A DNA stretch of 23,745 bases from positions 1 to 23,745 of IMG/VR virus record IMGVR_UViG_3300045921_000147; one strand, written 5' to 3'. Shown here piece by piece: positions 5,802 to 23,589 of the stretch (position 1 is its first letter; each line of letters opens with the position of its first letter). The stretch comes from a virus. The position numbers and the translations under genes are program-made. A model generated the notes under the pieces. That model ran no database searches, had not been told where the DNA came from, and saw nothing but the letters and a program-made list of their open reading frames with translations.

Positions 5802-6829
5802 TATAAATTACCTTCATTAGAGTATACGACTATCATCTCATCAATCATATCTTCGAAAGTGTATTTAGGCGACCATCCTAAAACTTTTCTAGCTTTAGAA
5901 GAATCTCCACACAGTCTACGAACATCTTCTGCTCTATAAAATTCTGGATTTATAATAACATAATCTTCGTAGTTTCCTAGTCCAACTTTTTCAAACACAT
6001 ACTTACATAATTCACGCACCGAGCGGCTTTCGCCCATAGCTATTACATAATCGTCGGGTCTATCCTGTTGTATCATTAACCACATAGCTTCTACATAATC
6101 TTTAGCATGGCCCCAATCACGATATGAATCTAAATTACCGAGCTCTAACTTATCAAGTTTGCCCGCCCTAATAGCTAATGCTCCACGAATAATTTTTGAT
6201 GTAACAAAGTTGTGGCCCCTACGTGGACTTTCATGATTAAATAAAATACCACTACAAGTATAGAGATTAAATGCTCTTCTATACATCTGAGTGGTATAAT
6301 GTGCAAATACCTTTGAAACAGCATATGGTGATGCGGGGGCAAATGGAGTATTTTCATCCTGAAGTAATACATTATTAGAATCTTCTATCAGTATTACGTT
6401 TTTTGTAGAGTTACCAAACATCTCGGATGTTGACGCTTGATAAAACTTAGTAGATGGTGATTGAGTTCTCAAAACTTCCAATATAGCTGCAACAGCTGTT
6501 GCGTTGGTCTCGGTTGTAGCAAGGGGCATATCATAACTAATTCTAACGTGACTTTGAGCTGCTAAATTATAAAATTCATGGGGTTGTACTTTTAATACAG
6601 CTTGTTCAATTGACAACGTATCCGTTACATCACCCCACAAAAAATGCAGTTTCTTGAACGCCTGGGTTGAAATATGTGCTAACTTACCAAGAGTTGTTTG
6701 ATCGTTTAAGTCATAAAAATTTCTACGAGGTATAATACACCATACCTCGTATTCTTTTTCTAGTAATAGTTCTGCCAAGTAACTACCATCTTGGCCTGTT
6801 GCTCCTGTTATAATTGCTCTCTTAGGCAT
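5801..6829 (-). CDS. gmd: GDP-mannose 4,6-dehydratase
   Basis: Converts GDP-D-mannose to GDP-4-keto-6-deoxymannose, the precursor of GDP-fucose, GDP-rhamnose and related sugars. The 342-residue protein starts MPKRAIITGATGQDGSYL with the GxxGxxG NADP loop at residues 9-15. STSEMFG (133-139) holds the active-site Thr/Glu. SPYAVSK has the catalytic Y169-x3-K173. LFNHESPRRG (197-205) and LGNLDSYRDWGHAKDYV (230-246) are strongly diagnostic of this enzyme. I place the start at 6829, with GAGAG a few bases upstream and an 8-base overlap like other genes here, instead of the ATG at 6850. Compared with usual members there seem to be about 11 extra residues between MFG and TPF. The second-step enzyme (fucose synthase or rhamnose reductase) is not visible in the window. 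Confidence 0.95.
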   Translation of the reverse strand: MPKRAIITGATGQDGSYLAELLLEKEYEVWCIIPRRNFYDLNDQTTLGKLAHISTQAFKKLHFLWGDVTDTLSIEQAVLKVQPHEFYNLAAQSHVRISYDMPLATTETNATAVAAILEVLRTQSPSTKFYQASTSEMFGNSTKNVILIEDSNNVLLQDENTPFAPASPYAVSKVFAHYTTQMYRRAFNLYTCSGILFNHESPRRGHNFVTSKIIRGALAIRAGKLDKLELGNLDSYRDWGHAKDYVEAMWLMIQQDRPDDYVIAMGESRSVRELCKYVFEKVGLGNYEDYVIINPEFYRAEDVRRLCGDSSKARKVLGWSPKYTFEDMIDEMIVVYSNEGNL

Positions 6830-7448
6830 TGATTCTCTCGTATTTTTCATTTTGTTTTTCTTGACGATCTATTGTTTTATTGTGAATTATTGCATATTCA
6901 GGTTCAGCGGGAAATACTGTATATGTCTTAAACCCCGTAAGTTTTTCGTGTACAGCACGTTCCCATTTAATATCAGGCAAATTTCTATACAATCTACATT
7001 GATAATCCGGCCATTGAATGACATCACCAACATGCTCTATATGAGTAACAGTCCAATGCCACTTACGGATATGATCATCGGTAATACCGTATACTTTATT
7101 CAGTCGAGGAAACCATGCAGCTTCAAACGTTGGTTCGTCTTCTATTATTTCGAATATATACTCATATAATTCTTCTGTCAAGTGTTCGTCTGCATCTAAG
7201 TTTAAAATCCACTCGCCTGAACATTTGCTGTTTAAAAAATTCTTTTGTTGTGCAAAATTATCATTTAAACTATGTTTATGAATGGTGACTGCGTTTGACC
7301 ATGCATCTAATATAGAAAGAGTGACAGGATCATCAGAAAAGTCATCTACAATCACTATTTCTGTGTTTGCTCTTTTTGGTATACTACTCAATAACTGAGC
7401 AATATACGGTCCTTCGTTTTTAGTTAGAATCGCGTAAGACAGCTTCAT
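6822..7448 (-). CDS. GT2 glycosyltransferase
   Basis: A 208-residue family 2 transferase. The opening MKLSYAILTKNEGPYIAQLL matches the A/C-x-I-x-x-K-N-E start of LPS-core and WaaE-like GT2 enzymes. EIVIVDDFSDD (residues about 30-40) is the nucleotide-binding strand, and WILNLDADEHL (about 80-90) is a clear LDADE DxD motif. WERAVHEKLTG near the C-terminus resembles the acceptor region of WaaE-type beta-1,4-glucosyltransferases. The protein is shorter than the usual 250 residues and has no membrane anchor. It overlaps the upstream GT4 by 29 bases and the dehydratase by 8. Confidence 0.88.
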   Translation of the reverse strand: MKLSYAILTKNEGPYIAQLLSSIPKRANTEIVIVDDFSDDPVTLSILDAWSNAVTIHKHSLNDNFAQQKNFLNSKCSGEWILNLDADEHLTEELYEYIFEIIEDEPTFEAAWFPRLNKVYGITDDHIRKWHWTVTHIEHVGDVIQWPDYQCRLYRNLPDIKWERAVHEKLTGFKTYTVFPAEPEYAIIHNKTIDRQEKQNEKYERINA

Positions 7449-8766
7449 TTTCTTCTACATTAACCTTTTTAAGTTTTGGTAATTCAATCTTTTTAAGATT
7501 TGGAAGTTTTATTGGTACTTGTACCGCAAACTTAGGAACAACTTGCTCAACCAATTCTTTGGTTTTCTGGAAAATTGCTTCATACGAAAACTTCTGTCTA
7601 TTTTCACGAGCAAGTTTCTTTGCACCTGGTAACAAGGTATCGTAGTTTTCAAATGCATAAGCCATCATATTAATTGCTTGTGATGGATCAGGCATAAACC
7701 ACATACTTTCTTTTAATATAACATTATCCCACGCTGCTGATGGGTGAACATTTTCAAGCTTTCCACCGACGAGAAGTGCATCGTTTGTATTTAAGAAATC
7801 AAGATGTCCTGACCACCCAGACGCAATGATTGGTTTTTCACTTAACGATGCTTCTAATAATGGACGACCAAACCCTTCTCCGTGCGTCAAACTAATATGA
7901 ACCTTTACCTTTGGATGATTATATAAAGAATTCATTTCAGACTCAGTAAGTTCACCATGCAGTAAATATACGTTTGGAGCATTTGGTCCAACTTGATCAC
8001 GAATTTCTTTAATACGTTTCAATATATGTTCACGGTCGATTACTGAGAATCCTGCCCCAGAAGTCTTTAACAAGAGTGCTGGTTGTTTAGATTTTACAGT
8101 ATTCTTGAAGGTTTCACAGAAAAGTCTAATAAGCAAACCAACATTCTTTCGGTCATGCCCAAGATCACCCTTCAGCCAGTGACCAACAAAGAGATATACA
8201 AACTTTTCTTTAATCTTCAACATCACATCATCAATACTTCTTTCTAACTTGTGTTGTACACCGAAAACATCTGTATGAACCGCGTTATGTAAAACTCGGA
8301 TTGGAACACGAACTCTTTCTGTTTTTACAACATTTCCAGCTTGATCACGAAATTCTGCAACAGTTTGTTCAAATACACGTTTACTGTGTTCTGAAATAGT
8401 CCAAACTTCGTTCATACGGTTACACCCTTCAATCCACTGTAAACTACATGCGGTAGTTTCAATACCAGCAGTTATACCAATATTAAACTTTCCAATTGGT
8501 TGAAATTCGTTTGGAACAGAAATCTGAACAAACAAGTCTGGTTGACGATCCAACGGACCTTGAAGAATTCTGTTAAGAATTTCTACATGCTTTAAGTTTT
8601 CTCCGTCTAATGCATTGAGGGGAGTCATGCCCCAACCCATACTAACTAGTTTAATGTCATATAGATCAAGTTCAATAAAATGACTGACAATATCTCTGGC
8701 CATATCACCATACCCGCTTCGGGTTGCGAATGGTCCTTGTATAACACATAATGGTTTGTTACTCAT
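7420..8766 (-). CDS. GT4 glycosyltransferase
   Basis: A 448-residue GT-B transferase. The N-terminal domain begins with CVIQGPFATRSGYGDMARD, a typical start for this group. The C-terminal donor domain has KFVYLFVGHWLKGDLGHDRKN (the start of the second Rossmann unit, around 188-208) and ISLTHGEGFGRPLLEAS, which carries the E-x7-E pair that binds the nucleotide sugar. The end is a Lys/Pro/Leu-rich tail with a short repeated pattern (LPNLKKIELPKLKK) that could be a membrane- or partner-binding peptide. It forms a pair with the second GT4 upstream, from which it is separated by a small phage gene and a homing endonuclease. It overlaps the 89-residue gene by 8 bases. Confidence 0.9.
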   Translation of the reverse strand: MSNKPLCVIQGPFATRSGYGDMARDIVSHFIELDLYDIKLVSMGWGMTPLNALDGENLKHVEILNRILQGPLDRQPDLFVQISVPNEFQPIGKFNIGITAGIETTACSLQWIEGCNRMNEVWTISEHSKRVFEQTVAEFRDQAGNVVKTERVRVPIRVLHNAVHTDVFGVQHKLERSIDDVMLKIKEKFVYLFVGHWLKGDLGHDRKNVGLLIRLFCETFKNTVKSKQPALLLKTSGAGFSVIDREHILKRIKEIRDQVGPNAPNVYLLHGELTESEMNSLYNHPKVKVHISLTHGEGFGRPLLEASLSEKPIIASGWSGHLDFLNTNDALLVGGKLENVHPSAAWDNVILKESMWFMPDPSQAINMMAYAFENYDTLLPGAKKLARENRQKFSYEAIFQKTKELVEQVVPKFAVQVPIKLPNLKKIELPKLKKVNVEENEAVLRDSN

Positions 8767-9028
8767 CTATAACCTCTTCATAAGTTTGTTCAAAAATATC
8801 TGTTTTACATGGATAATATTCTCCAGCTACACCCCGAATAATCCAGTCTGTTAGAGCGCCTATCGTTGTTCCTTCTAATGTTTCGATATACACAACATAC
8901 TGACCATCAAAAGGTAGCTGCTCAATATGATACTTACTCTTTCCTAAAAAATTTATAATTTCATCTTGATTAGATTCTTTAATTTGAACAGCTTCTACTA
9001 TTACTGGTTTTTTTCTAAACTTTGGCAT
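8759..9028 (-). CDS. Conserved small phage protein of unknown function
   Basis: An 89-residue protein I recognise as a widespread phage and prophage type. It starts MPKFRKKPVIVEAVQI and ends with a conserved block ADWIIRGVAGEYYPCK-like segment; here it reads TDWIIRGVAGEYYPCKTDIF, followed by an acidic tail. The function is not known in any relative I can recall. It is small, soluble and lacks a signal or membrane segment. It lies between a GT4 and the homing endonuclease, which hints that it may have moved together with the endonuclease and may have nothing to do with glycan synthesis. The gene starts two bases after the endonuclease stop. Confidence 0.75.
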   Translation of the reverse strand: MPKFRKKPVIVEAVQIKESNQDEIINFLGKSKYHIEQLPFDGQYVVYIETLEGTTIGALTDWIIRGVAGEYYPCKTDIFEQTYEEVIDE

Positions 9029-9029
9029 G

Positions 9030-9773
9030 TTATAGATCTCTCCAAGTTTTTCTTAAAACTATATCACTTATATGATCAGGATTTAATCTGTATTTGTGTG
9101 CCAATTGTATCTGTTTAAACTGGCCAGTTTCCCAATCCTTTCTAATGTTAAGAACAATTTCTTCTGTAATTTTCCTACTTCTAGGAGCTATACTTTTTAT
9201 TTTATGAAGTTTTCTTTGTTCTTCACTCATGGTTTGCCAACGCTTCACGCCAGCAATTTCTAAAGATTTTTTATGAGATGTACTTAATTCTTTGCCTTTC
9301 CAAAATGAGGATTTTGACTTGTGAAGTTTCATATAATCCTTATCTTCTTTTTTATGAGACCAAGTTTTTATATTAGATTCTTTTATACGATTTTTATGTT
9401 CTTTAGATTTAGTCTTTCCTTTTCTCACAGTACTCATTTTATTAATTGTTTCAACAGAGTGTTTTTTACCTCGCATAGCTGCATCAGATTCAGTACCCAT
9501 ATTAAAACAATCCGGTGTTCCTACGTAAATTTTCAGTAATTTATTTTCTGATTCCGCCAATAGGTTAGGTTCCAATCGTTCCAATATTTCTATCGCAAAA
9601 GCGTCTTCTCCATATTTATTCCACGACGATTGCAAGTGTTTATTTGCGTGTCTGTTGTTTCTAAGTGCTGACCGATGATTTTGCCATCTATTTTTTATAT
9701 TAACACTTGATCCTATATAAAACTGACCAGTTTTGATGTTGGTTATTTTATAGATTCCACTCACGCTTTCCAT
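9030..9773 (-). CDS. GIY-YIG homing endonuclease with NUMOD3-like DNA-binding region
   Basis: A free-standing homing endonuclease of 247 residues. The catalytic domain occupies about residues 4-90: SGIYKITNIKTGQFYIGSS supplies the GIY and YIG strands, N26-IKNRW the conserved Arg, and LQSSWNKYGEDAFAIEILE the N/E part. The middle is rich in Lys/Ser/His with two NUMOD3-like blocks (GKKHSVETINKMS and GKTKSKEHKNRI) that would lie in the DNA minor groove. The C-terminal 40 residues (EEIVLNIRKDWETGQ through HISDIVLRKTW) look like a helix-turn-helix. It nicks or cuts a related intron-less or gene-less allele to spread itself. Its ATG lies 13 bases inside the end of the upstream GT4, so it uses the operon for expression. 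Confidence 0.93.
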   Translation of the reverse strand: MESVSGIYKITNIKTGQFYIGSSVNIKNRWQNHRSALRNNRHANKHLQSSWNKYGEDAFAIEILERLEPNLLAESENKLLKIYVGTPDCFNMGTESDAAMRGKKHSVETINKMSTVRKGKTKSKEHKNRIKESNIKTWSHKKEDKDYMKLHKSKSSFWKGKELSTSHKKSLEIAGVKRWQTMSEEQRKLHKIKSIAPRSRKITEEIVLNIRKDWETGQFKQIQLAHKYRLNPDHISDIVLRKTWRDL

Positions 9774-11227
9774 ATGTCAAATCTCTTTCGAGGTGACCAA
9801 TTTTTCAATACTTCTTCAAATCCTTCAATAAAACCATTACCCATTTCTGTTGTCGTAAATTTATTTTCTATTGCATATTCACGACCAAGTTTACCACGAC
9901 GAGTACGTTCGTCCTTTGACATATCAAAGATTTCTCTCATTGCTTTTGCAGAGTCTTCATATGAAGGACGTTCATCGACGATATATGGTGTAGGGACAGA
10001 GCCTATAAGCGAACGATTACTTGGAAATAGTGGAATAGCCCACTCACCATGCGTAGTATACTTTTTGACGCTATTTGTTAGGAAATTCTTATTAAAATGT
10101 ATATTTTCGTTTAATAAGTTACCGTTTTCATCACGGAATCCCATTTGGTCTTGCAATCCGCCTGTAACAGTTGCTATAATCATACTACCAGCCATTATTG
10201 CTTCCATTGTAGCCAATCCAAATCCTTCATTGGATGACATATTAATCGTAACATCTGTAATGTTATACAATAGATTGAGCTTGTGTGTTGGCAAACCAGG
10301 ATTGCTGTAGATAATAAGTTTTTCACATTCAGGCAATACATCACGAACTACAGCCGGCAAGTCTGTTCCATTATCATCAACCGGCGCGGTGTGCATTATT
10401 AATCGAACTTTATTTTTCTTTTCTTTTGGTAAATCAGCAACAAACTGCTTGAATGCCCATAACACATCACCAGTAGACTTGCGACGAATATTTCTATTGT
10501 TGTAGAGAATTGAAAATTCTACATCTTCATCTTTAAACAACTGTTTACGCATTTCAACTAATTCAGCGTCATCCTCTGGAACTGGCTTAAAAATATTTGA
10601 ATCTACACCGTGTGGGAGATACTTTAGTTGCCAATCTTTAATATCATCGCCCTCTAATACAATACGGTTTAAGTTGTGGGTTTGCTTACTAATAGCAAAT
10701 AATGCATCGACTGAACGATAATAGTTTTTATTGTACAATGGTGGTGGTGGTGCATCCCATATATTGTAGAACACGATTGGTACTACTTGACGAAGTTCGT
10801 GTTCCATCTCAAATAACCAAATCCAGTATCTTGGATCAGTAAAGATCATAAGAATATCTGGTTTATATGCCATTAATAATTGACGAACAACTTGTTGATT
10901 TCCATAACCATTAAATGGTACTATTATAAGTGACGCATCCTTCACACCAGAAGCTTCTGAAAGTGCCTGTGAAGCGTCTACAATTTTACCTGCTTCTGGG
11001 TGTTGTACAGCAGCTCCCAACTGCACCCAGTTATACCGATGTGCTGTATTTACTACAATTTCACGGGACATTGTTCCAACGCCCGAATGCATTCTCAAAT
11101 CATCGGAAAGTAATAAAACAGTTTTACGTTCTGCTTTTGGTAAGTAACCTTCTTTTGTAACCTCTACCGTATGATCGGCTATATCTCCGATACTCTGTGC
11201 AGTAGGAATATCAATATCTATACTCAT
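9761..11227 (-). CDS. GT4 glycosyltransferase (large)
   Basis: A 488-residue GT-B transferase, the largest of the operon. The N-terminal 35 residues are an extra acidic or polar extension before VLLLSDDLRMHSGVGTMSRE, which is the true GT-B start. The second domain has FSILYNNRNIRRKSTGD (start of the donor domain) and INMSSNEGFGLATMEAIMAG with the E-x7-E donor-binding pair, then IATVTGGLQDQM. DPRYWIWLFEMEHEL, about 130 residues in, is a segment of the acceptor domain. It resembles the other GT4 in layout but differs clearly in sequence. It directly follows the RHH gene (TAATG overlap), making it the first enzyme gene of the operon. Confidence 0.9.
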   Translation of the reverse strand: MSIDIDIPTAQSIGDIADHTVEVTKEGYLPKAERKTVLLLSDDLRMHSGVGTMSREIVVNTAHRYNWVQLGAAVQHPEAGKIVDASQALSEASGVKDASLIIVPFNGYGNQQVVRQLLMAYKPDILMIFTDPRYWIWLFEMEHELRQVVPIVFYNIWDAPPPPLYNKNYYRSVDALFAISKQTHNLNRIVLEGDDIKDWQLKYLPHGVDSNIFKPVPEDDAELVEMRKQLFKDEDVEFSILYNNRNIRRKSTGDVLWAFKQFVADLPKEKKNKVRLIMHTAPVDDNGTDLPAVVRDVLPECEKLIIYSNPGLPTHKLNLLYNITDVTINMSSNEGFGLATMEAIMAGSMIIATVTGGLQDQMGFRDENGNLLNENIHFNKNFLTNSVKKYTTHGEWAIPLFPSNRSLIGSVPTPYIVDERPSYEDSAKAMREIFDMSKDERTRRGKLGREYAIENKFTTTEMGNGFIEGFEEVLKNWSPRKRFDIWKA

Positions 11228-13335: not shown

Positions 13336-13585
13336 TTATGAAATCTTTCACGTTATTGCTTTCGTCTGTTTCTTCTTGCTTCTCGTTATCGGCGTTTATA
13401 TTGGACAATCTTTTAAAGGATCTCTCTAATTCTTCTATACGTTTATCCAAATCTGATTGGTCGGTTACCTTTTCGAATAAATCATAATAATAACTGTTAT
13501 TCATCTGTAAGGTAACGTGGAATAGTCCCGGAGCATCTTGAATCAAGAAATAAGGATTACCAGCTTTAGATCTACCTTTAATCAT
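13331..13585 (-). CDS. Hypothetical protein, 84 residues
   Basis: No family recognised. The first half looks like a small beta-rich fold (GNPYFLIQDAPGLFHVTLQM) and the second half is a charged helix that may form a coiled coil (DQSDLDKRIEELERSFKRL), ending in a disordered acidic tail with many Asn/Glu. The gene starts with ATGA overlap on the stop of the gp62-like gene, so it is probably translated together with the clamp-loader small subunit. A role at the replication fork is possible only by context. Confidence 0.6.
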   Translation of the reverse strand: MIKGRSKAGNPYFLIQDAPGLFHVTLQMNNSYYYDLFEKVTDQSDLDKRIEELERSFKRLSNINADNEKQEETDESNNVKDFII

Positions 13586-14031
13586 AACTTTAATTTTTTA
13601 ATTTTTTTAGCGTCTGTCCCGTAGGATTCAAGAAGTTGTTTGAGGTTTGACTTACCTGTGGGAGTTGCGTAGAAAATGTTGAGGTATTCTTGAGCCTCAT
13701 CTGTTCCCACCATGTAATGCGATGCAACGATTTCAACCACCCAGCTTTCATAGTTCGTTTCATCTTTGGCACCCTTAATATATTTGTTGTATTGTTTACC
13801 ACGGGGAAGAATATCAGCATACACTTTAAAGAGTTCTTTACCCTTTATCTGATTATAAAACATTTGAACTTCGTTCACAATTGGTACAAAGTTCATATTC
13901 ATACTAATGAACCTATTGATCATATAATCAGACCACGTTTTTTTATCTACGTCATTTAAAGTTTCATAATATTTTAAATTTTTTGACGTAAATACTGCAT
14001 TTACGTGATCAAATAAACTTTTCTGTTTCAT
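13582..14031 (-). CDS. gp62: Clamp-loader small subunit, T4 gp62-like
   Basis: A 149-residue protein that I match to T4 gp62 by segment order. TWSDYMINRFISMNMNFVPIV corresponds to the gp62 region with Y-S-K-F-M-V-E-N-A-L-S (here residues about 32-52). The following ILPRGKQYNKYIKG corresponds to the VPRGKRYGKW segment, and VVEIVASHYMVGTDEAQEY to the IIKLLAKRYQVNTNDA helix. The C-terminus is Lys-rich in both. With gp44 it forms the pentameric loader that opens and places the sliding clamp. T4 gp62 is 187 residues, so this version is clearly shorter, mainly at the N-terminus. The ATG overlaps the previous gene by 23 bases and has no clear Shine-Dalgarno. Confidence 0.75.
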   Translation of the reverse strand: MKQKSLFDHVNAVFTSKNLKYYETLNDVDKKTWSDYMINRFISMNMNFVPIVNEVQMFYNQIKGKELFKVYADILPRGKQYNKYIKGAKDETNYESWVVEIVASHYMVGTDEAQEYLNIFYATPTGKSNLKQLLESYGTDAKKIKKLKL

Positions 14032-14781: not shown

Positions 14782-15711
14782 TTATTTCATTACTTGTAAA
14801 ATACTAATTAATGTACTCATCATATTTATTTCTTTGTCAACTACAAAAGCATCCCTATATTGTCCTTCTGCTATTGCTAGAATAACACCGGATACATTAT
14901 TAGGGGAATATTCTTCTACACGATCATATAACAATCTATATATGTCAGAAAAATCACGAATTTTTGCATCTGCAAGAATTTGCCGAATTGATTGAAACTT
15001 TGTTTTACCATCTGACTTTGCCACTAAAGTTTCAATTATTTGAAGTTTAATATCTGATGCAACTAATTCGTTCTTATTAAGAAGAAGTTGACCTGTTGTT
15101 GAATTTTGTTGAATTTCTTGAATAACCTTTCTAATATCAGGATAGTGTGCATCAATAATTATCTTAACATCTTGAACATTTGCTGAAATTCCTTCTTTTT
15201 GGAGAATATTCCATGCGTGCTTACCAACCTCTGCTTTATTAGGCGGAACAACATGGAATGATTGTGTTCTACTCACAATAGCATCAAGCATACGTTCCAC
15301 AAAATTACAGGTCATAATAAACCGTGTAGTAGAGTGGAAACTTTCCATTATATTACGAAGTGCTGCTTGTGCCTGCAAGGAAAGAAAATCTGACTCATCT
15401 AAAATGATTATTTTAGTTCCACCAGTAATACTTACGGTCTGAGCAAACTTACGGATTTTATCACGAATCATATCAACGCTGTTTTCATCAGAAGCATTGA
15501 TATACATTGTGCGGTCACGTCCTGCAATCTGATTAGCGATAATCTTTGCAATAGTTGTCTTTCCAGTTCCAGGTGGACCAGAAAGTAATAGATGTGGAAC
15601 ATCTCCTGATGCTAAATAACGTCCAACTGCTGCTTTTAATGATTCATTACCAATATATTCGTCAAGAGACTGAGGGCGGTATTTCTCTGCCCAAATAAAA
15701 GCATCAGACAT
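14782..15711 (-). CDS. gp44: Clamp-loader large subunit, T4 gp44-like (RFC/AAA+)
   Basis: A 309-residue AAA+ ATPase of the replication factor C type; T4 gp44 is 319. It begins with the RFC box FIWAEKYRPQSLDEYIG. It has Walker A SGPPGTGKTT (residues 44-53), Walker B IIILDESDFL (101-110, DESD at 105-108), sensor 1 in FIMTCNF, and SRT at 147-149 replacing the SRC arginine-finger motif of relatives. The C-terminal collar helices follow. Four copies with one gp62 use ATP to load the clamp onto primed DNA. It has the best Shine-Dalgarno of the window, AAGGAGG nine bases before the ATG, suggesting high expression as needed for the 4:1 ratio. It overlaps the 64-residue gene by 8 bases. Confidence 0.95.
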   Translation of the reverse strand: MSDAFIWAEKYRPQSLDEYIGNESLKAAVGRYLASGDVPHLLLSGPPGTGKTTIAKIIANQIAGRDRTMYINASDENSVDMIRDKIRKFAQTVSITGGTKIIILDESDFLSLQAQAALRNIMESFHSTTRFIMTCNFVERMLDAIVSRTQSFHVVPPNKAEVGKHAWNILQKEGISANVQDVKIIIDAHYPDIRKVIQEIQQNSTTGQLLLNKNELVASDIKLQIIETLVAKSDGKTKFQSIRQILADAKIRDFSDIYRLLYDRVEEYSPNNVSGVILAIAEGQYRDAFVVDKEINMMSTLISILQVMK

Positions 15712-15898
15712 TAAAAGTTACCTCCTTAGAAGTCTGTCCAGCTTTATAACCTTCCGAGTAAATGGAAGGTTCTACTATTTTAATAACTGCTGCTACAATA
15801 TCTCTAGCAGATACCATATCCCACGCCCTACAACTCATACCTACATAATTTTCTACAAACTCGACTATCTGATCTAATTTTTTATCAGTAAAAATCAT
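15704..15898 (-). CDS. Hypothetical protein, 64 residues
   Basis: Unknown function. A small helical protein with two amphipathic helices (DKKLDQIVEFVENYVG and ARDIVAAVIKIVEP) and a polar end (YSEGYKAGQTSKEV). A single Cys is present, without a metal motif. The reverse of its last codons carries the strong ribosome site of the gp44-like gene. It sits one base after the 69-residue gene. It resembles short helical phage proteins generally, and I can give no role. Confidence 0.55.
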   Translation of the reverse strand: MIFTDKKLDQIVEFVENYVGMSCRAWDMVSARDIVAAVIKIVEPSIYSEGYKAGQTSKEVTFNV

Positions 15899-15899
15899 T

Positions 15900-16109
15900 T
15901 TAATTTAAGTTGTTTTTAAATTGTTTTAACTCTTTTTCGGTAAAAGAATTAACTTCACTAGTATTACCCATCTCGTTTAATATAACACGCAGAAGTTCTG
16001 ATGTCAAGTGTTTATTTTCCCATTTAAATTGCATAGGACCATATTGTTCTAGTTCAAGAATAATAAATCCTTTTCCCGTAAATTCTAATTTTAATTCTTC
16101 CATTGGCAT
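15900..16109 (-). CDS. Hypothetical protein, 69 residues
   Basis: No family recognised. The N-terminal half looks like beta strands (LKLEFTGKGFIILELEQYG, QFKWENKHL) and the C-terminal half is helical (TSELLRVILNEM, TEKELKQFKNNL). Two ATGs are possible, at 16109 and 16103; AAGGA lies 3 bases before the first and 9 before the second, so the second is slightly better spaced. A small gap of 29 bases separates it from the DruA-like gene. Confidence 0.55.
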   Translation of the reverse strand: MPMEELKLEFTGKGFIILELEQYGPMQFKWENKHLTSELLRVILNEMGNTSEVNSFTEKELKQFKNNLN

Positions 16110-16138: not shown

Positions 16139-17314
16139 TCATCGACCAACATCAGAAAGATATTTTTTCTTAGCATCTTCCCACGACATACCAATCATAG
16201 GAGTATAAAACAGTGTATTAGTTGATAATCTATTCTGTGATTTTAGATTTTTATATCTAGTAATTGCTTTAGGAACCCACCACCTCAAAACATCATCAAC
16301 ATCATTTTTTATTTTTTTATTTATAACTAAATCATCTACTGATATTTCATTCCGTAGAAACTGTCTAGTATTTTCGTATAATTCTGTATAAAACACTCCT
16401 CTTGTAAATCCATGCATATAATTAGACTGTTTCATTCCTAATTCTTTCATAATCATCACAAGAATTTTTTGTTTAACACCTGTTGTTGGTTGGCCTGTAT
16501 CTTTATATGTTTTTTCTTCATATTTTTCACTAAATTTTTCTTTAATGTAGTGATGCCAATATTCATAAAACGAATCATCGGGCTTTAACACAACACGTCC
16601 CGTAGTTTCTCCCAATTCCTTCCAAAACGGAATACGTTGATACATCGAATGTACACCGTATAGTGAAGTTGTGGTAATACCAACTAACCTTTCAGGATAC
16701 AAAGTATTCCATGCTTGACGTACAGGTTCAGTTGTCATCATAGAAGCAACCAACTTACCACCCAAAAAGTTATATCCAAATGGTTGAGTTGCAACTATTG
16801 TTGTAGCGATAGCCGAATGATTTAATTTCTTATCTTTAATCTTGTCTTCTGTTGACCAACCAATCCACTCATCGCGACACTTAACAAGAATAACATCAGA
16901 ACCGAGTGATGAACAACCTAAATACTTACCAGTATTTTCGTCTATAACAAAAAACCGAAGAAATCTACCTGGATTTCGTTCAAACTCCAACGTGTGAATA
17001 AATGTTCTAAGAAGTAACCAGTTTTCCATTTCCTGGTTATTGTCAGGTTGTACAAATACAATTTTAGGTCGTAATTTTTGAATTTCTTTAATGGTTAAAT
17101 CTTCATCTTCTAAATTTGAAGGTTGCCAGATATTGCTTTTTACTCTATCTGCTTTTGTAATTTGTTTAAAAAAATCTTGTACTTCAATCCATTTTTTGTA
17201 AAGGGTATGTTCTTCATTCGTCATTGAACGCAGAAATTCCATATGTTCAATGAACTTTTTCTTTTCACTTTCAAATGTTGGAACTTCTAACTCAAAGAAA
17301 TCAGAGAATGACAT
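16139..17314 (-). CDS. DruA/DUF4338-like protein
   Basis: A 391-residue protein whose core resembles the DUF4338 family, which includes DruA of the Druantia anti-phage systems and transposon-linked proteins. Segments in family order: RFLRFFVID (117-125), YLGCSSLG (131-138), RDEWIGWS (147-154, matching the family's D-R-x-I-G-W-S), LNHSAIATT (164-172), LGGKLVAS (184-191), LVGITTTSLYG (210-220, the family's L-E-T-F...Y segment) and WKELGETTGR (231-240, like W-x-x-L-G-x-T-T-G-R). The N-terminal 110 residues are helical; the C-terminal 150 are phage-specific. The biochemical activity of the family is not established. The gene lies between the clamp and clamp-loader genes and overlaps the Cys4 gene by 14 bases. 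The family call is from memory of its motifs. Confidence 0.65.
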   Translation of the reverse strand: MSFSDFFELEVPTFESEKKKFIEHMEFLRSMTNEEHTLYKKWIEVQDFFKQITKADRVKSNIWQPSNLEDEDLTIKEIQKLRPKIVFVQPDNNQEMENWLLLRTFIHTLEFERNPGRFLRFFVIDENTGKYLGCSSLGSDVILVKCRDEWIGWSTEDKIKDKKLNHSAIATTIVATQPFGYNFLGGKLVASMMTTEPVRQAWNTLYPERLVGITTTSLYGVHSMYQRIPFWKELGETTGRVVLKPDDSFYEYWHHYIKEKFSEKYEEKTYKDTGQPTTGVKQKILVMIMKELGMKQSNYMHGFTRGVFYTELYENTRQFLRNEISVDDLVINKKIKNDVDDVLRWWVPKAITRYKNLKSQNRLSTNTLFYTPMIGMSWEDAKKKYLSDVGR

Positions 17315-17501
17315 GTTCTATAGATTTAAATTCACCGCATAAGTCGTTTTCGGACACAAGAGGATATTGTCCTAAGCTAGCATGTACACTATTTGGGTCA
17401 TAAGGTCGTGGATTTGGTGGGAATCTTTTACATAAACCAACCAACTGACGCTCATGTGATCCTTGTTGTACAAAAAATTGACACTTTTTACAAGTAGACA
17501 T
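17301..17501 (-). CDS. Small four-Cys protein, probably zinc-binding
   Basis: A 66-residue protein with C4-x2-C7 at the N-terminus and two further Cys at 24 and 55, a spacing that could hold one zinc. The middle, RFPPNPRPYDPN, is Pro-rich. Similar short Cys4 proteins with a CxxCxF start and a C-x-x-F/Y-P segment are common in phages and bacteria, without a known function. It starts two bases after the clamp stop and overlaps the DruA-like gene by 14 bases, so the three are likely co-translated. Confidence 0.65.
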   Translation of the reverse strand: MSTCKKCQFFVQQGSHERQLVGLCKRFPPNPRPYDPNSVHASLGQYPLVSENDLCGEFKSIEHVIL

Positions 17502-17502
17502 A

Positions 17503-18216
17503 TTAAGAAATCTTCACAAGATAATAGTCAACAGAAAAACCTTCTATTTCAAAGGTAACGTGAGCAAGACCCTTTGATGATACTTTTAACTTACCACTTG
17601 CCATTTCTTTATTAGAAAGAAGCATATCCTTAAAATATTGAGCTGAGAAACTTACTGGTTCAATATCATTTGTTACAGTTGACGTGGTATCGATTGATAC
17701 TCGATTTGTATTTTGTTCACTCCAACCAACTACAACCGTAGTTGAATTATTTTCTGTCAAAACAGTAAAATTGTCTGCTTCTGGCAGAGCACTTTTTGCT
17801 TTTGTAAAAGTTTGAACAAAGTTGCTATCTAAATCAATCTCCACTTCAAACGGTGGAAGATTCTTCATAGCTGGAGCCTGTGGAATAGTTTTCTTATCTG
17901 CTAGGCTATACTGTACCTTTGTTCCTCCTGACCGCATCTCAAATCCAATTGGAGTACCATCGTTGCGAGTAAGTAACGTAACCTTTACGTCCTCGTCTAA
18001 CACTGAGAGCAATGAGCGAAGTTGTTTTGTATCATATACTCCAAATTCACCACTTGGAAGTTCTAACTGATTAGTAGTGATAAAACCTGCTGCACTTTTA
18101 TCATCTGTTATAAACTTGGTAGATACGGAATTTCCCTTGGATTCAATAATAACACTTTCAGCTACTCCATTTAGATTATATTTCGAGATAAACCGCTCAA
18201 AAGAATTCTTTTTCAT
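17503..18216 (-). CDS. gp45: DNA polymerase sliding clamp, T4 gp45-like
   Basis: A 237-residue protein; T4 gp45 is 228 and forms a trimeric ring. The sequence begins KKNSFERFISKYNLNGV, and has the alternating beta-strand pattern of clamp domains (SVIIESKGNSVSTKFI, KVTLLTRNDGTPIGF, HVTFEIEGFSVDYYLV at the end). Residues 62-77 (GVYDTKQLRSLLSVLD) resemble the gp45 segment with the L-x-x-F/L-L-S-x-L helix. A Pro-rich middle (KKTIPQAPAMKNLPPFEVEID) links the two domains. It tethers the polymerase to DNA and in T4 also activates late transcription. GAGG lies about seven bases before the ATG. The assignment rests on length, fold pattern and position beside gp43 and gp44. Confidence 0.82.
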   Translation of the reverse strand: MKKNSFERFISKYNLNGVAESVIIESKGNSVSTKFITDDKSAAGFITTNQLELPSGEFGVYDTKQLRSLLSVLDEDVKVTLLTRNDGTPIGFEMRSGGTKVQYSLADKKTIPQAPAMKNLPPFEVEIDLDSNFVQTFTKAKSALPEADNFTVLTENNSTTVVVGWSEQNTNRVSIDTTSTVTNDIEPVSFSAQYFKDMLLSNKEMASGKLKVSSKGLAHVTFEIEGFSVDYYLVKIS

Positions 18217-18225
18217 AATTTCCTC

Positions 18226-18513
18226 TTAATTTAAGACTTTAACTTTAGCGTTTATAAATGAACCTTTACGTTCTATTTTTTCTTTACGTACTTCTTCTAA
18301 TGTTTTAGGATCAATTTTAAAATGATAACATATAGCGTCGATGACATCTAAAACATCCCCAATCTCTTCTATTATATCAGCTTTGGTTATTGCTGTCAAG
18401 ACCTCTGTTGATTCTTCTACTAATTTGGCTCGCAATAAAATTTTTAATTCATGTTTACTAAGGGGCATTCTTGATGTATCTGGATCATTGTATTTGTCTC
18501 TAACTAATTTCAT
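18226..18513 (-). CDS. MazG-like (COG4997) nucleotide pyrophosphohydrolase
   Basis: A 95-residue all-alpha NTP pyrophosphohydrolase. It starts KLVRDKYND, close to the family's K-L-V-R-D-K-I-P. The metal-binding helices are seen as KLVEESTEVLTA (E-E-x-x-E) and DIIEEIGDVLDVIDA (E-E-x-x-D-x-x-D). Residues KEKIERKGSF match the K-R-G-x-F end of the COG4997 group. These house-cleaning enzymes hydrolyse non-canonical or excess NTPs and dNTPs. In phages MazG-type enzymes may also lower alarmone signals, but this is not shown for this subgroup. GAGG lies five bases before the ATG. It sits between polymerase and clamp, consistent with nucleotide-pool control. Confidence 0.85.
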   Translation of the reverse strand: MKLVRDKYNDPDTSRMPLSKHELKILLRAKLVEESTEVLTAITKADIIEEIGDVLDVIDAICYHFKIDPKTLEEVRKEKIERKGSFINAKVKVLN

Positions 18514-18525
18514 AATATCCTCGTA

Positions 18526-21045
18526 TCAAAAAGTAAAAAACTCTAAAGCATTTTGATTAACATCCGTAGGAATATTTCCCCAACCAAGTGCTGTATAAAA
18601 GTCATCTAACTTATTCTTCAATTCTGATTCAAACAATGCTTTTGCGTCAGTGTAGTTATTGACCAAATCCAAAATTTCCTTTGGATCGCCAAATCCACGA
18701 ATAGCAATAACGTCTATTTTATATGGATTGTCTTTCAAATAAACATACTTGATTTTTTCACCATCCATTATTGGTTCATATTTTTTATCAAGATTTAACA
18801 TTTTAAGAAATCTATTGTATGTTAAAGCAGATTTAACATGCATAGGAGTTCCTTTAGCAAATGTTACTAAGTCATCTGTTTTAACAGTATCATACTTTGA
18901 TAAATTTTTAACGCTAGTATTACGAGCTATTAACAACCTATCAAATTTCTCAATTGATTCAACAAATTCTAGAATTTTTGAATCAATAACTTCTTTTGGT
19001 TTTTTGTTTAAAATTTCCAACAATAATTCATTCATAAATGACTTAAATGCAATTGGAAAACTTGATCGCACAACATCCAAACCTTTTACAGTTATCTTTT
19101 CAATAGTTAGATTCTTCTCAAGATCAAAAGTCTTTAAAAGTGCATATCGTTTCTTTGCCACCCAAAACCCAGACTTTGCTACTGTTTCACCTTTAATAAC
19201 AAATTTATGATCTTTACAGAATAACATACGTTCTGCCATAACTGTATAAAATGAGTTTAATCCAGATTCCATTTGTCGAGCAATATCAATAGTAAACTGC
19301 ATCGGATCATTATTACCCATTAAAGGAACAGCGCTAAAGTAACAAGAATCTGTGTCTGTGTAAAGATTATAATCTTCGTCAGTTTCCAATTTCTTTCGAT
19401 ATATTGAATTAATATACTTAGCAGTTGTTTTAATAACATCTTGGCCAGTAGATGTTACTGCCAATGCATTATCTATATCATAAAATCTAAATACAGGAAG
19501 ACCCAAAACACCATAGATAGAGTTCAAGAAAATCTTTTGTACGTGTTGTAACTGGTCATAGTATGCTTCCAACTCTACGTTTCCTTCACGTGCATACTTT
19601 TTCATTAAATCTTTGTATTCTTTACGTTTTGCAAACCATTCTTCAAGAATCTCTGGAATAATACCCTTCTTGTTTGTATCATAAAGAATACCATTACTAG
19701 ACACCGTAAACCTTGTATCTTCCATAAATTCAATAAACTTGTCTTTATCAAATTTATATGTTGAACGATCTGCCTCAACAGTTAAGCTGTTTACCTCATT
19801 TGACAAAAACTTATTCACATCCCAGTTGTAAACTCTACCTGCCTTAGTTTCGGGAGAAATATTCAAACTCATAATAATGCTTGGATATAGACTTTGTAAA
19901 TCAAGTGAATATACCCACTCATATAAACCTGGTACTGGTTCTTTTACATACGCTCCTTCAAAACCATCTTCGTCTGAGTTGTCACGTTCTTCCATTTGAG
20001 TTCGACCGTCAATTGGCTTATTTGGACAAATAATTCCCTTACGATGTAAATAGGTAACAATAGTTCCCTCAATAAATCGAGAACTCATATTATAATCTTC
20101 GTATGGTACATGCCCTGTATGACAAATACGGCGAACTAATTCTATAAGCTTCTTTTTCTTGTCGATACTAACAATAAGTTTAACGTCAATATGATTATAT
20201 TCTACAAATTTTGCTAAATTATTTTCGTATAATTCTTGAAGTGTGCCATCATATTTAATCTTTTTTTCTCCAAGTTCAAATTCTGCTATAGTATCTAAAC
20301 GATAGTTTGGTTGTTCTGTGTAGGTAAACTTTTTATACATTTCTAAGTAATCAAGCTGACTAACACCAGCTATTACATAGCGTTCTTGTCGTTGACTATA
20401 TTTAACCAATTGTACCGGCGAAAGTCGGCATGCATTTTCATCACCCATTACTCGTCGCAGGCGTCTATATAGATATGGAACGTCAAATCTATTACTGTTC
20501 CAACCTGTTATAATAGTAGGTGAAAGTTCTTCGTAGTAATTTAAGAAAGCATTTAATAAATCTTCTTCATCACTATAATAATTTTCCTCCCAACCACGAA
20601 TAGTTTGTAATCCAACAAACTGCTTATTATTGGCTAATGTAAAAGTCTTATATTCTTCTGTAATTGAATCGTATACCGCAATAGATGTAATTTCTTTATC
20701 GGCAGTTTCCAAATTTGGAAATCCACCCTTTGAACTTACTTCAATGTCAAAAAATAGAACAACGTGACCTGTACTTGGTTCATCAGAATCCAAATATAAG
20801 TCAGTCAATACCCTTGTTTCTCTTGGTAAATCAGATTCTAATAATCCTTCCTCATCACGGCGATATCGATAAGTTTTCTTTACTCTAAAACCATGCAAAG
20901 AAATATCCATACCAGATGAATCACGTCTATATGCATAATCAAATTCAGTATATGGAATAGTAAGAAGTCCTTTCTTATCATCCCACAAATATACTGTTGC
21001 TGGTTCGTATTCAGTTCTACTTGTAATAAAAATATTTTGGTACAT
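18526..21045 (-). CDS. gp43: Replicative DNA polymerase, family B, T4 gp43-like
   Basis: An 839-residue polymerase with intact 3'-5' exonuclease and polymerase domains; T4 gp43 is 898. Exo I is FFDIEVS (D100, E102), Exo II TGWNSNRFDVPYL (D188) and Exo III YNHIDVKL (Y283, D287). Motif A is SLDLQSLYPSI (D382), motif B FLNSIYGVLG (506-515) and motif C LYTDTDSCYF (D564, D566), with KKRY at 631-634. The last residues, NALEFFTF, are aromatic, like the C-terminal clamp-binding peptide of T4/RB69 polymerase, and fit the gp45-like clamp nearby. It copies the phage genome and proofreads. No intein, frameshift or split is seen. No good ribosome site precedes the ATG; a consensus -35 box lies upstream. 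Confidence 0.97.
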   Translation of the reverse strand: MYQNIFITSRTEYEPATVYLWDDKKGLLTIPYTEFDYAYRRDSSGMDISLHGFRVKKTYRYRRDEEGLLESDLPRETRVLTDLYLDSDEPSTGHVVLFFDIEVSSKGGFPNLETADKEITSIAVYDSITEEYKTFTLANNKQFVGLQTIRGWEENYYSDEEDLLNAFLNYYEELSPTIITGWNSNRFDVPYLYRRLRRVMGDENACRLSPVQLVKYSQRQERYVIAGVSQLDYLEMYKKFTYTEQPNYRLDTIAEFELGEKKIKYDGTLQELYENNLAKFVEYNHIDVKLIVSIDKKKKLIELVRRICHTGHVPYEDYNMSSRFIEGTIVTYLHRKGIICPNKPIDGRTQMEERDNSDEDGFEGAYVKEPVPGLYEWVYSLDLQSLYPSIIMSLNISPETKAGRVYNWDVNKFLSNEVNSLTVEADRSTYKFDKDKFIEFMEDTRFTVSSNGILYDTNKKGIIPEILEEWFAKRKEYKDLMKKYAREGNVELEAYYDQLQHVQKIFLNSIYGVLGLPVFRFYDIDNALAVTSTGQDVIKTTAKYINSIYRKKLETDEDYNLYTDTDSCYFSAVPLMGNNDPMQFTIDIARQMESGLNSFYTVMAERMLFCKDHKFVIKGETVAKSGFWVAKKRYALLKTFDLEKNLTIEKITVKGLDVVRSSFPIAFKSFMNELLLEILNKKPKEVIDSKILEFVESIEKFDRLLIARNTSVKNLSKYDTVKTDDLVTFAKGTPMHVKSALTYNRFLKMLNLDKKYEPIMDGEKIKYVYLKDNPYKIDVIAIRGFGDPKEILDLVNNYTDAKALFESELKNKLDDFYTALGWGNIPTDVNQNALEFFTF

Positions 21046-21070: not shown

Positions 21071-21099
21071 ACTGTAATCAATTTACTAATATTTGTCAA
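21071..21099 (-). promoter_or_regulatory. Possible sigma70-like promoter of the DNA polymerase gene
   Basis: On the minus strand TTGACA (21099-21094) is a perfect -35 box and is followed after 17 bases by TACAGT (21076-21071), four of six bases of the -10 consensus. Transcription would start near 21064, about 19 bases before the polymerase ATG, in the only gap of about 40 bases in this section. The -35 overlaps the last codons of the Gly/Tyr-rich gene, so it could be a coincidence of coding sequence. Confidence 0.35.
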
Positions 21100-21379
21100 G
21101 GTCTGTTTCTTCAGTATTCATTTTATTTAGTGATTGTAGTAGGTTGTGGGGGTGGTAGCGACTAGTTCCATAACCATAATGATTTTCATAACCATAATGA
21201 TTTCCATAACCATAGCCATCACCAAATTCATCACCATAACTATATCCATATCCATAACCAGCACCAAGTCCATAACCATAACAATAGCCAGCACCAAATC
21301 CATCACCATCACCATAGTTATGACCAAATCCATCACCATAGTTATGACCAAAACCATAACCCCGAGTAAATTTAATCAT
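21086..21379 (-). CDS. Gly/Tyr-rich low-complexity repeat protein 2
   Basis: A 97-residue protein of which about residues 7-77 are made almost only of Gly, Tyr, Asp, Phe, His and Asn. Repeats are GFGHNYGD (8 residues, twice at the start), alternating GYGYG, and NHYGYE/NHYGYG (6 residues). A normal, charged C-terminal tail follows (LLQSLNKMNTEETDLDKY). The start MIKFTRGYG is shared in style with the neighbouring protein (MIKIGDSYG), suggesting duplication. No signal peptide is seen. Tyr/Gly repeats are typical of phase-separating, amyloid-like or adhesive proteins, but the function is unknown. The ATG overlaps the upstream stop as ATGA. Long ORFs in other frames here are caused by the repeat bias. 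Confidence 0.7.
   Translation of the reverse strand: MIKFTRGYGFGHNYGDGFGHNYGDGDGFGAGYCYGYGLGAGYGYGYSYGDEFGDGYGYGNHYGYENHYGYGTSRYHPHNLLQSLNKMNTEETDLDKY
21311..21358. repeat. Two near-identical 24-bp direct repeats in Gly/Tyr gene 2
   Basis: The unit starting ACCATAGTTATGACCAAA occurs at 21311 and again at 21335, a period of 24 bases (8 codons). An 18-base period (6 codons) is seen near 21175-21215 in the same gene. The periods are multiples of three, so repeat gain or loss keeps the frame. Confidence 0.8.
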
Positions 21380-21681
21380 TGAAGTATTAGATATCGAGGG
21401 TAGTAAATAGATGTATCAACATAATCGCTAAGTCCATAACCACTACCATCGACAAACCCACCATCAAAACCATTACCAAATAAAAAACCAACTCCAGCAC
21501 CACCACCGTATATGTTACCATAGGCGTCACCATATCCTTCATTGAATGCAAATCCAAAACCGTATCCATCACCATAAAGGTTACTATAACCTTCTGCAAA
21601 TCCAAAACCGTATCCATCACCATAAGGGTTACTATAACCTTCATAGTAACCAGATCCATAACTGTCGCCAATTTTAATCAT
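21376..21681 (-). CDS. Gly/Tyr-rich low-complexity repeat protein 1
   Basis: A 101-residue Gly/Tyr/Phe/Asp-rich protein. It contains a 16-residue unit EGYSNPYGDGYGFGFA repeated once as EGYSNLYGDGYGFGFA, then further degenerate forms (NEGYGDAYGNIYGG, GFLFGNGFDGGF), and ends with an ordinary segment (DYVDTSIYYPRYLILQ). The frame is open to an ATG at 21702, but I choose the ATG at 21681 because it gives MIKIGDSYG, parallel to the next gene's MIKFTRGYG, and only an 8-base overlap with the VWA gene. No catalytic motif, Cys or membrane helix is seen. It is probably co-translated with the AAA+/VWA pair. Function unknown; a structural, adhesive or condensate-forming role is possible. Confidence 0.68.
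   Translation of the reverse strand: MIKIGDSYGSGYYEGYSNPYGDGYGFGFAEGYSNLYGDGYGFGFAFNEGYGDAYGNIYGGGAGVGFLFGNGFDGGFVDGSGYGLSDYVDTSIYYPRYLILQ
21548..21643. repeat. Two tandem 48-bp direct repeats in Gly/Tyr gene 1
   Basis: Copies at 21548-21595 and 21596-21643 agree at 46 of 48 positions by hand alignment (differences at repeat positions 31 and 48). They encode the 16-residue protein unit. The near-identity at DNA level, including silent positions, points to a recent duplication by slippage or recombination. Confidence 0.85.
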
Positions 21682-22777
21682 ATAAACACTCAGTCGCCCC
21701 AATAATTTTTGCTATGTGTGTAGTTGTACAACCAATTGGAATAACAATACACTTTGGAAAATTTTTAGGTACCGATACACCATATGCACTATCGTCATCT
21801 GTTATAATAATTGAAAGTTCAGATCTATCTTTATAAATGTTATCAATAACAGATTGGTAATTTGTTCCTCCCGCACCACACATAGGATCATTTACCAAAA
21901 GTGTATTATTAAAATACAAAACATCTGATCTGACCCGACCACGATATTTTAAAAGCAATTTATTGATATAATCTATACTATCTTTTGTTTTTTCTAGACT
22001 AAAAGATCCGCTTCGATCTACATAAATTGTTAGTTTAGGTGTTTTAGGAATTGATGATATGCCTTTTAGAATTAAATTTGTGCTATCAGCACGTCTATTC
22101 GGTCTTCTATATGTTTTTACACGGCCAATCACACTACGCCCAAAATAACGATCCATAATAGAAGACAATGATGGTTTTGGTAGTGTAAAGTTATTTACAG
22201 AGTACTGTGCTTGTTGTTTAGATCGTTCATATTTGATTTGAGATATTTGTTCATTTATTTTTTTCTTTACTTCTTCAACTAACTCCTCAATATTTGGAAT
22301 ATTTGGTGTATTTCTATTTTCATCAGTTATTTCTAAATTACCATCAGAATCTATAGAAACATAAAGTTTTTCTGCTTCTTTCTTTTCAAGTAATAAATCG
22401 TAAAATTCTTCTGCATATTTTGCTCCAGTAAAATCTTCACAATGAATTTTACGAATTGCGCCTGACAAAGATGATCTTGGTCTTGTGATCATATCATCAT
22501 CTTTATCAGTGTATATATGGTATGCTATTTCCAAATCACATGCAATATTCCATAATTTATTATTCCAAATACCATTTATAGATTTCTGTTTTAAGCATTT
22601 GGCACTTCCGCGTGATCGATGACGTAACCAAATATGAGAAAGTTCGTGCAAAAGTAACGTTTCACGTTCATCTACACGAACTACCTCACGACTTATATAT
22701 ACCGATGTAAAATCAGTATACCCCACACTTGGTTTATTACCATCAAAATCAATTATTGGAATATTAGTCGAAATCAT
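21674..22777 (-). CDS. VWA-domain protein with HExxH metallopeptidase-like domain (DUF2201-like)
   Basis: A 367-residue partner of MoxR-type ATPases. The N-terminal domain has LLLHELSHIWLRHRS with H44-E45-x2-H48, the zinc-binding HExxH of putative metallopeptidases. A charged linker of about 100 residues follows, with coiled-coil tendency (EKKEAEK, EELVEEVKKKINEQ). The C-terminal VWA-like domain has the MIDAS motif D254-R-S-G-S258, the MIDAS Thr in GAGGTNY (T305) and IIITDDDS (Asp near 327). Related proteins are encoded beside MoxR ATPases, and such pairs are thought to remodel or activate target proteins using metal-dependent contacts. The target in this phage is unknown. It overlaps the AAA+ gene as ATGA. 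Confidence 0.88.
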   Translation of the reverse strand: MISTNIPIIDFDGNKPSVGYTDFTSVYISREVVRVDERETLLLHELSHIWLRHRSRGSAKCLKQKSINGIWNNKLWNIACDLEIAYHIYTDKDDDMITRPRSSLSGAIRKIHCEDFTGAKYAEEFYDLLLEKKEAEKLYVSIDSDGNLEITDENRNTPNIPNIEELVEEVKKKINEQISQIKYERSKQQAQYSVNNFTLPKPSLSSIMDRYFGRSVIGRVKTYRRPNRRADSTNLILKGISSIPKTPKLTIYVDRSGSFSLEKTKDSIDYINKLLLKYRGRVRSDVLYFNNTLLVNDPMCGAGGTNYQSVIDNIYKDRSELSIIITDDDSAYGVSVPKNFPKCIVIPIGCTTTHIAKIIGATECLYD

Positions 22778-23589
22778 TTATTTATAATTCTAATTGGGCT
22801 AATTTTTGATGTTTTAGAAAAAGGTTTTCTAGAGAAATTTATCAATGTTTGCCTTGCTCTAGACTCTTCTTTTGAAATTTCAGATTTATCAAATACTCGT
22901 AACATTTGATCTGCTGCAACACCACTAAGTAGTCCACGTACTAGTTCAGAACGTTCATCCTTCGATGGACTATTCAATGCTGCTCTAAACGCCATATCTA
23001 AAGTTCTAGGGCAGGTAAGTCTCCAGGACCATTCTCCCTCTACACCAGATACATCTAGTAATGGTATTTCTCCAACTTCAACTAATGCAGCAACTTCATT
23101 TGCTAAATCTTCGTGTTCAGTATTTTTCCATTGAGACTTAAACCAATTACACCAATTGTTTACGTTGGGTACAAAAGTACGAACAGAAAATCTAGACCGC
23201 ATTGCCTGACTTATTCCATCACCTCCACCCCATTCAGGTGGATTTGCAGCAGCAATAATATCGCATGAAGGTGGTAAAGACCATTCACCTATTCTACGAG
23301 ATGCTATTAAAGTCAACAATGTATCAGCTACTTCGCGTCTAGCTTTATCAAGTTCATCAAAAAATATTGCGGTAGTTTTTCCTGCTGACGCGGCCTCTCG
23401 CAATCTTCTAAACATAGGAGGTTCAGTACGTGCCTCTACACCATTTATATGGTACGGAAGCCCTGCAATATCTTCTTCCGTCATAGTAGACAAAAGCACT
23501 ACTTCTGTGTAATCATATTTGCTGATTACAATTTGTGTTTTTCCCACACCTGGCGGTCCAACCCATAAAACAGGAATTGAATGATTCAT
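22774..23589 (-). CDS. MoxR-type AAA+ ATPase
   Basis: A 271-residue single-domain AAA+ ATPase. Walker A is GPPGVGKT at residues 11-18, almost at the N-terminus, so there is no N-terminal domain. EEDIAGLPYHING is the usual MoxR segment after the first helix, Walker B is AIFFDELDKA (74-83), sensor 1 lies in AAANPPEWGGGD (N116), and MRSRF (130-134) holds the arginine finger. The C-terminal lid is short. MoxR ATPases act as chaperones together with VWA proteins, and the VWA gene directly follows with ATGA overlap. The target is unknown; the two Gly/Tyr-rich proteins encoded next are candidates only by position. Confidence 0.9.
   Translation of the reverse strand: MNHSIPVLWVGPPGVGKTQIVISKYDYTEVVLLSTMTEEDIAGLPYHINGVEARTEPPMFRRLREAASAGKTTAIFFDELDKARREVADTLLTLIASRRIGEWSLPPSCDIIAAANPPEWGGGDGISQAMRSRFSVRTFVPNVNNWCNWFKSQWKNTEHEDLANEVAALVEVGEIPLLDVSGVEGEWSWRLTCPRTLDMAFRAALNSPSKDERSELVRGLLSGVAADQMLRVFDKSEISKEESRARQTLINFSRKPFSKTSKISPIRIINK

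Follow-up and report, generated by a model that had tools for sequence, protein, structure and literature searches.

The window, a 23.7-kb virus record that is itself a fragment, carries a replisome operon on its minus strand (Table 1). The genes are arranged in the order gp43, a MazG-like gene, gp45, a 66-aa ORF, a DruA-like gene, two small ORFs, gp44 and gp62. The original prediction had placed the DruA-like gene between the sliding clamp and the clamp loader, in tight overlap with replication genes. The position is borne out by the profile matches of the flanking genes (phrog_223 for gp45, phrog_168 for gp44), while the tight overlap is slightly overstated: the gene overlaps the 66-aa ORF by 14 nt but lies 188 nt from gp45 and 427 nt from gp44, and small ORFs separate it from both. 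Outside the operon, glycosyltransferase-like and sugar-nucleotide-like genes form a large island at positions 243-11227, broken by a GIY-YIG-like ORF (9030-9773), as read from the ORF list. Two neighbouring ORFs at 21086-21702 contain glycine/tyrosine-rich low-complexity repeats, and at 21674-23589 a MoxR-like AAA ATPase (PF07728) adjoins a DUF2201_N putative metallopeptidase protein.

Table 1 Features of the replisome operon in the window
Feature	Position	Strand	Evidence
gp43 family B DNA polymerase	18526..21045	(-)	PF00136, E 1e-43; C-terminus NALEFFTF, similar to the N-terminal motif of the DruA-like protein
MazG/PRA-PH-like nucleotide pyrophosphohydrolase	18226..18513	(-)	PF01503, E 2e-5
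gp45 sliding clamp	17503..18216	(-)	phrog_223, E 9e-15
66-aa ORF between clamp and DruA-like gene	17301..17501	(-)	phrog_15838, E 2e-6, no function assigned
N-terminal tail MSFSDFFELEVPT of the DruA-like protein, predicted disordered; FF-acidic motif, candidate clamp-docking peptide	17276..17314	(-)	pLDDT 49 for residues 1-10
DruA/DUF4338-like gene, 391 aa	16139..17314	(-)	ATG-to-stop ORF exactly at these coordinates
69-aa ORF downstream of DruA-like gene	15900..16109	(-)	ORF alone; no family match
64-aa ORF downstream of DruA-like gene	15704..15898	(-)	ORF alone; no family match
gp44 clamp loader large subunit	14782..15711	(-)	phrog_168, E 2e-77
gp62 clamp loader small subunit	13582..14031	(-)	phrog_225, E 2e-16

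The assignment to the DUF4338/DruA family is confirmed by a Pfam search of the 391-aa protein, which scores 110.7 bits against PF14236.12 (E 1e-31; curated cut-off 27) and 110.9 bits in a search of the whole record. PF14236 is the only Pfam match, with none to the Mom family PF25680, and a search of NCBIfam yielded no match. The protein is also matched by the PADLOC DruA1 profile (E 9e-27) and by phrog_19197 (E 5e-30), to which no function is assigned. By BLASTP it is 27% identical over 260 aa (82 bits) to DruA from a Druantia-like locus of Nitrosococcus watsonii that has a DEAD/DEAH helicase in the same operon. R147, GGKL, S217, G220, S223 and Y225 are invariant or nearly so between the 391-aa protein and two bacterial DruA proteins, and a polar set of R147, K187, T215, T216, S223, Y225 and R305 is kept even in remote relatives.

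Among annotated phage genomes, the family is found only in marine T4-like phages, namely 25 Synechococcus phage records, one named cyanophage, three Pelagibacter phage records and two uncultured marine viruses. The gene is located directly or a few genes after gp44 and just before gp62 in the examined cyanophages. Two copies are found in Pelagibacter phage HTVC008M: one follows gp46, and the other lies between gp43 and uvsX. Other isolates with the family include Pelagibacter phage Mosig EXVC030M and Synechococcus phages S-PRM1 and S-CAM9. More than 160 loci with the family are found in IMG/VR. For the relatives of the window type, 47 nonredundant loci were compared: the gene lies between gp45 and gp44 in 24, directly upstream of gp43 in 15 and beside a replisome gene at the contig edge in four, and the other four have no replisome gene in the available stretch. 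A replisome gene on the same strand is thus found within 2 kb in 43 of 47 loci, at a median distance of 3 nt. The placement is conserved among relatives, and a random one is ruled out by these counts. The gene is under purifying selection (median dN/dS 0.07 for 60 close pairs of window-type relatives). Among the 80 closest gp44 relatives, 25 carry a DruA-like gene within the region fetched. As most gp44 relatives do without it, an essential core replication factor is ruled out, and this patchiness makes a core replication role in general unlikely.

The Synechococcus phage proteins (S-PRM1 and others), which adjoin gp44 and gp62, belong to the same family. In the available part of one report they are described as DruA-like by structure comparison and classed as defence-like, and that part contains no discussion of a Mom link, a slot interchange or a docking motif (PMC12774648). 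The window protein falls into a different subfamily, which is 23-25% identical to that of the cyanophages. Relatives outside replisomes exist as well. Those in MAG bins (L171-L181) are a mixture of likely phage contigs and mobile elements. A DruA-like domain is fused to a ParB_N domain in a 603-aa protein (L172, 1800-3608; ParB just below the cut-off) and joined to an N-terminal domain without known family in a 733-aa protein (L177, 4942-7140). In L174 and L175, the gene is accompanied by a resolvase/recombinase and a 277-aa partner on apparently cellular contigs, perhaps as part of a mobile element. A second, shorter DruA-like frame is found in two further loci (L042, 1006-1737; L060, 5432-6166), and in L060 a Mom gene separates both copies.

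Druantia type I DruA shares PF14236 and the motifs RDxxIGW, GGKL and TTS..G..SxY with the phage protein. The latter differs in its location in a replisome operon, its separate branch and its N-terminal FF/FW motif. The bacterial PF14236 proteins that were fetched split into Druantia types and transposon types; in a tree, each of the three groups (phage, Druantia and transposon type) is found on one side of a branch, and the phage proteins form a branch of their own (R+C split 100/98). DruB-E are absent among the ten neighbours in the window fragment scanned with PADLOC, where a weak generic PD-(D/E)XK match (DruK, exonuclease) was obtained. With neither DruB-E nor helicase companion genes among these neighbours, a Druantia defence system is ruled out for the window. 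Homology to Druantia DruA is compatible with an inhibitor or decoy, the alternative named in the original prediction: a phage-borne mimic that poisons the host Druantia complex. This idea found no support and is the least likely explanation considered, with a very small probability: the phage branch is deep and separate, the gene has long resided in the replisome cluster of phages with very different hosts, including cyanobacteria and SAR11, and neither Druantia genes nearby nor any other Druantia-specific link was seen.

A structure model of the 391-aa protein was built from an alignment of 35 relatives (pLDDT 90.3, pTM 0.86). Mom of phage Mu (8bv8) is its best solved match in VIA-align, with Z 10.0 across 181 residues, but other GNATs trail by less than one Z unit, which amounts to a tie. 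The modelled fold alone therefore secures membership in the GNAT superfamily only, but this membership can be regarded as secure. Foldseek against the PDB returned GNAT matches only, all weak (best E 5e-3), and a sequence search of solved structures found nothing. For a domain fused to DndF, DUF4338 has already been described as a GNAT (PMC10853773). The same fold is predicted for proteins of the giant viruses Faunusvirus, Yasminevirus and Dasosvirus (BFVD A0A3G4ZXG3, A0A5K0UAJ3 and A0A3G4ZRA1, E 1e-19 to 1e-9).

Beyond the fold, the relationship to Mom was followed by profile comparison with hhalign. The phage type matches Druantia DruA with 99.85% probability (E 6e-31), Druantia and phage types combined match the transposon type with 96.8%, and the transposon type matches the Mom family with 96% (E 4e-9), Mom being the sole GNAT profile compared. 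The last alignment pairs Mom's H58-Y59, N121, S124, D149, Y159 and N163. When the phage type was compared directly with Mom, no significant match resulted (4% probability), so that the link is transitive and runs via the transposon type only. This chain of profiles argues that the phage DruA family shares ancestry with Mom and that Mom's HY, Ser and Asp have been lost, as in Druantia DruA. In phage and Druantia types, other residues stand in place of Mom's HY before beta 2, S124 and D149; the 391-aa protein, which is about 150 aa longer than Mu Mom, lacks H58, Y59, S124 and D149 and has Y225 at about the position of Y159. The invariant set of the phage DruA proteins is instead R147, G186-K187-L188, S217, G220, S223 and Y225. 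As the signature residues are replaced, the chemistry may differ from that of Mom or be lost, and N6-adenine carbamoylmethylation should not be assumed in a protein that lacks Mom's catalytic residues. One of the records is already annotated as 'methylcarbamoylase mom'. At one locus (L241, 12-2048), a transposon-type DUF4338 and an apparent transposase domain share one open frame.

The replisome slot was surveyed in loci fetched through gp44 rather than DruA, by which bias is avoided (80 loci, 36 after removal of near-copies). The 36 nonredundant loci carry TGT in 15 cases, DruA in eight (three with Mom), Mom alone in five, an N6/N4 methyltransferase in three and none of these in five. DruA never occurs together with TGT or a methyltransferase in this set, and one such modification gene is present in 19 of the 21 loci of at least 9 kb. 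Mom, the family with which the phage protein shares the GNAT fold and, via the transposon type, homology, is found in this slot among sister phages: Mom and methyltransferase genes sit exactly between gp45 and gp44 in some of them. Pfam confirms Mom (L264), the N6/N4 DNA methyltransferase (L288; weaker in L277) and dUTPase (L281) as slot genes. A 418-aa family near the slot matches TGT and is a candidate DpdA-like transglycosylase. Its members (L291, 690-1943; L281, 666-1937; and relatives) end in C-terminal FFKF and are usually accompanied by a dUTPase in the slot between gp45 and gp44; the TGT-dUTPase association in the gp44 set has a p of 2e-4.

In phage-type loci fetched through DruA, Mom genes are found in 49 of 108, within 44 nt in 22, and a typical array is Mom-Mom-DruA-gp43, with Mom identity confirmed by Pfam. 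No Mom gene was found in the 23.7-kb window fragment, and Mom lies nearby in none of 87 cyanophage-type relatives. As DruA-Mom co-occurrence is not significant in the unbiased gp44 set (p 0.23), adjacency and the shared slot are taken as the evidence. Because the slot of sister viruses holds known DNA-marking enzymes, the DruA-like gene probably marks new viral DNA. The replication- or DNA-related task of the original prediction is thereby narrowed to DNA modification by the Mom chain, the slot interchange and the Mom adjacency, a core replication role being unlikely given the patchiness described above. A GNAT could also acylate a protein during infection, such as host RNA polymerase, a restriction enzyme or a ribosomal or replisome protein, and phage GNATs such as phiKMV Rac do target host proteins (PMC7824862). 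As this would explain neither the homology chain to Mom nor the way in which Mom, TGT and DNA methyltransferase genes replace or adjoin the DruA-like gene, protein acylation is considered distinctly improbable.

A further neighbour, often directly after the DruA-like gene, is a GT4-like glycosyltransferase with an N-terminal FW[DE] (L056, 8205-9314; L017, 8170-9276; L019, 8026-9132; and relatives). It has a GT-B fold with a GT4-like match of Z 25.5 and is possibly a DNA glycosyltransferase; a DNA substrate is only a guess, because T4 alpha-glucosyltransferase is absent among the matches listed. The DruA-glycosyltransferase association in the gp44 set (p 0.01), the Mom-Mom-DruA arrays and the position of this FW-tailed glycosyltransferase directly after DruA in several loci are compatible with a special case of DNA modification, in which a group added by Mom is then extended, either by the DruA-like protein or by the glycosyltransferase beside it. 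Such a second-step hypermodification is rather unlikely, since many DruA loci are without Mom in the available stretch and glycosyltransferases are common in these genomes.

The N-terminal tail of the DruA-like protein is predicted to be disordered, the first helix of the model beginning at residue 14. Its sequence MSFSDFFELE and the C-terminal NALEFFTF of the window gp43 form a similar hydrophobic-acidic terminal epitope, and the tails of relatives read SFSDFFELE, SFWDTE, FAEFFDV, LHSLFFGEE and the like. In 41 of 48 distinct DruA-like relatives, F[FW] lies within residues 1-12, compared to 2.5% expected per terminus. The same expectation is exceeded at the C-termini of gp43 (40/41), TGT (9/12) and Mom (13/47), at the N-termini of the adjacent GT-B glycosyltransferase (15/20) and, as a weak excess partly due to miscalled starts, at those of gp44 (9/55). 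These six are the families with a significant terminal excess among 51; the motif is shared almost solely by DNA-modification families and gp43. As the binomial p-values ignore shared ancestry, the weight rests on the number of families with the motif. For the N6/N4 methyltransferases of the slot, whose number is too small for this test, the C-terminal ends are FWDTK or NFWG. No polymerase-like terminal motif is present in the Mom proteins of Mu, ICP1 and similar phages, and no FF motif in cyanophage-type relatives and pelagiphage copies.

In two phages, the end of Mom is a near-copy of the C-terminus of their own polymerase, which suggests that Mom docks on the clamp there: SLTDLFGDW in gp43 and GLTDLFGDF in Mom of Aeromonas phage PX29 (L328, 12471-15233; L218, 232-1116), and TTLEDFFG and ATLEGFF, respectively, in Melnitz-2 (L330, 1415-3946; L219, 292-1101). 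The C-termini of T4 gp43, gp55 and gp33 are interchangeable gp45 clamp-binding epitopes (PMC2988020), and by analogy the DruA-like N-terminal motif would bind gp45. A T4-type precedent for a clamp-bound DNA-modification enzyme is T4 alpha-glucosyltransferase, which co-purifies with gp45, although the alpha-glucosylation level in T4 is not set by clamp binding (PMC13216743). This enzyme has a GT-B fold, glucosylates hmC and is unrelated in sequence to the window protein.

On balance, these observations slightly favour the DruA-like protein being a DNA-modifying enzyme that is docked on the clamp and acts against host restriction. The enzyme, a GNAT of the Mom/DUF4338 branch, would be tethered by its disordered N-terminus (SFSDFFELE) to the phage's own gp45, where it would compete for, or share, the site of the polymerase C-terminus. 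New phage DNA would be marked during or just after replication, a base probably being acylated or otherwise substituted, and host restriction enzymes would fail to cut the marked DNA. The location in the replisome operon would be explained if the enzyme were produced together with the replication fork and acted there. The operon and the clamp-like terminal motif, together with the loss of Mom's catalytic residues, would also suit a non-enzymatic accessory or regulator, in which a degenerate GNAT fold binds the clamp or DNA and tunes replication or, like gp33 and gp55 via the clamp, late transcription. An accessory enzyme fits the patchiness among gp44 relatives and the interchange with real enzymes better, and the invariant polar set persists, so that a non-enzymatic role appears unlikely.

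A broader generalisation of clamp-docked DNA modification is offered tentatively, as it is probably more than the evidence will bear out. Phages with a T4-type clamp may use a general docking mode in which unrelated modifiers (DruA-like, Mom, N6/N4 methyltransferases, TGT/DpdA-like and glycosyltransferase) each carry a terminal copy of the clamp-binding peptide of the polymerase and write a base mark at the fork, and DUF4338, including Druantia type I DruA, may be a new class of nucleobase modifiers derived from Mom-like enzymes. In the literature searched, neither the sequence bridge from DUF4338 to Mom, nor the interchange of DruA and modification genes in a replisome slot, nor a polymerase-like docking peptide was found; the same holds for a stated function of DruA in Druantia type I and for a treatment of DruA together with Mom and DNA modification. 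The placement of DUF4338 beside Mom gives a direct hypothesis for the DruA family, namely nucleobase modification. The terminal motif common to these families points to a way in which marine T4-like phages may write modifications at the fork, and a short terminal peptide of this kind would permit the recognition of further modification enzymes.
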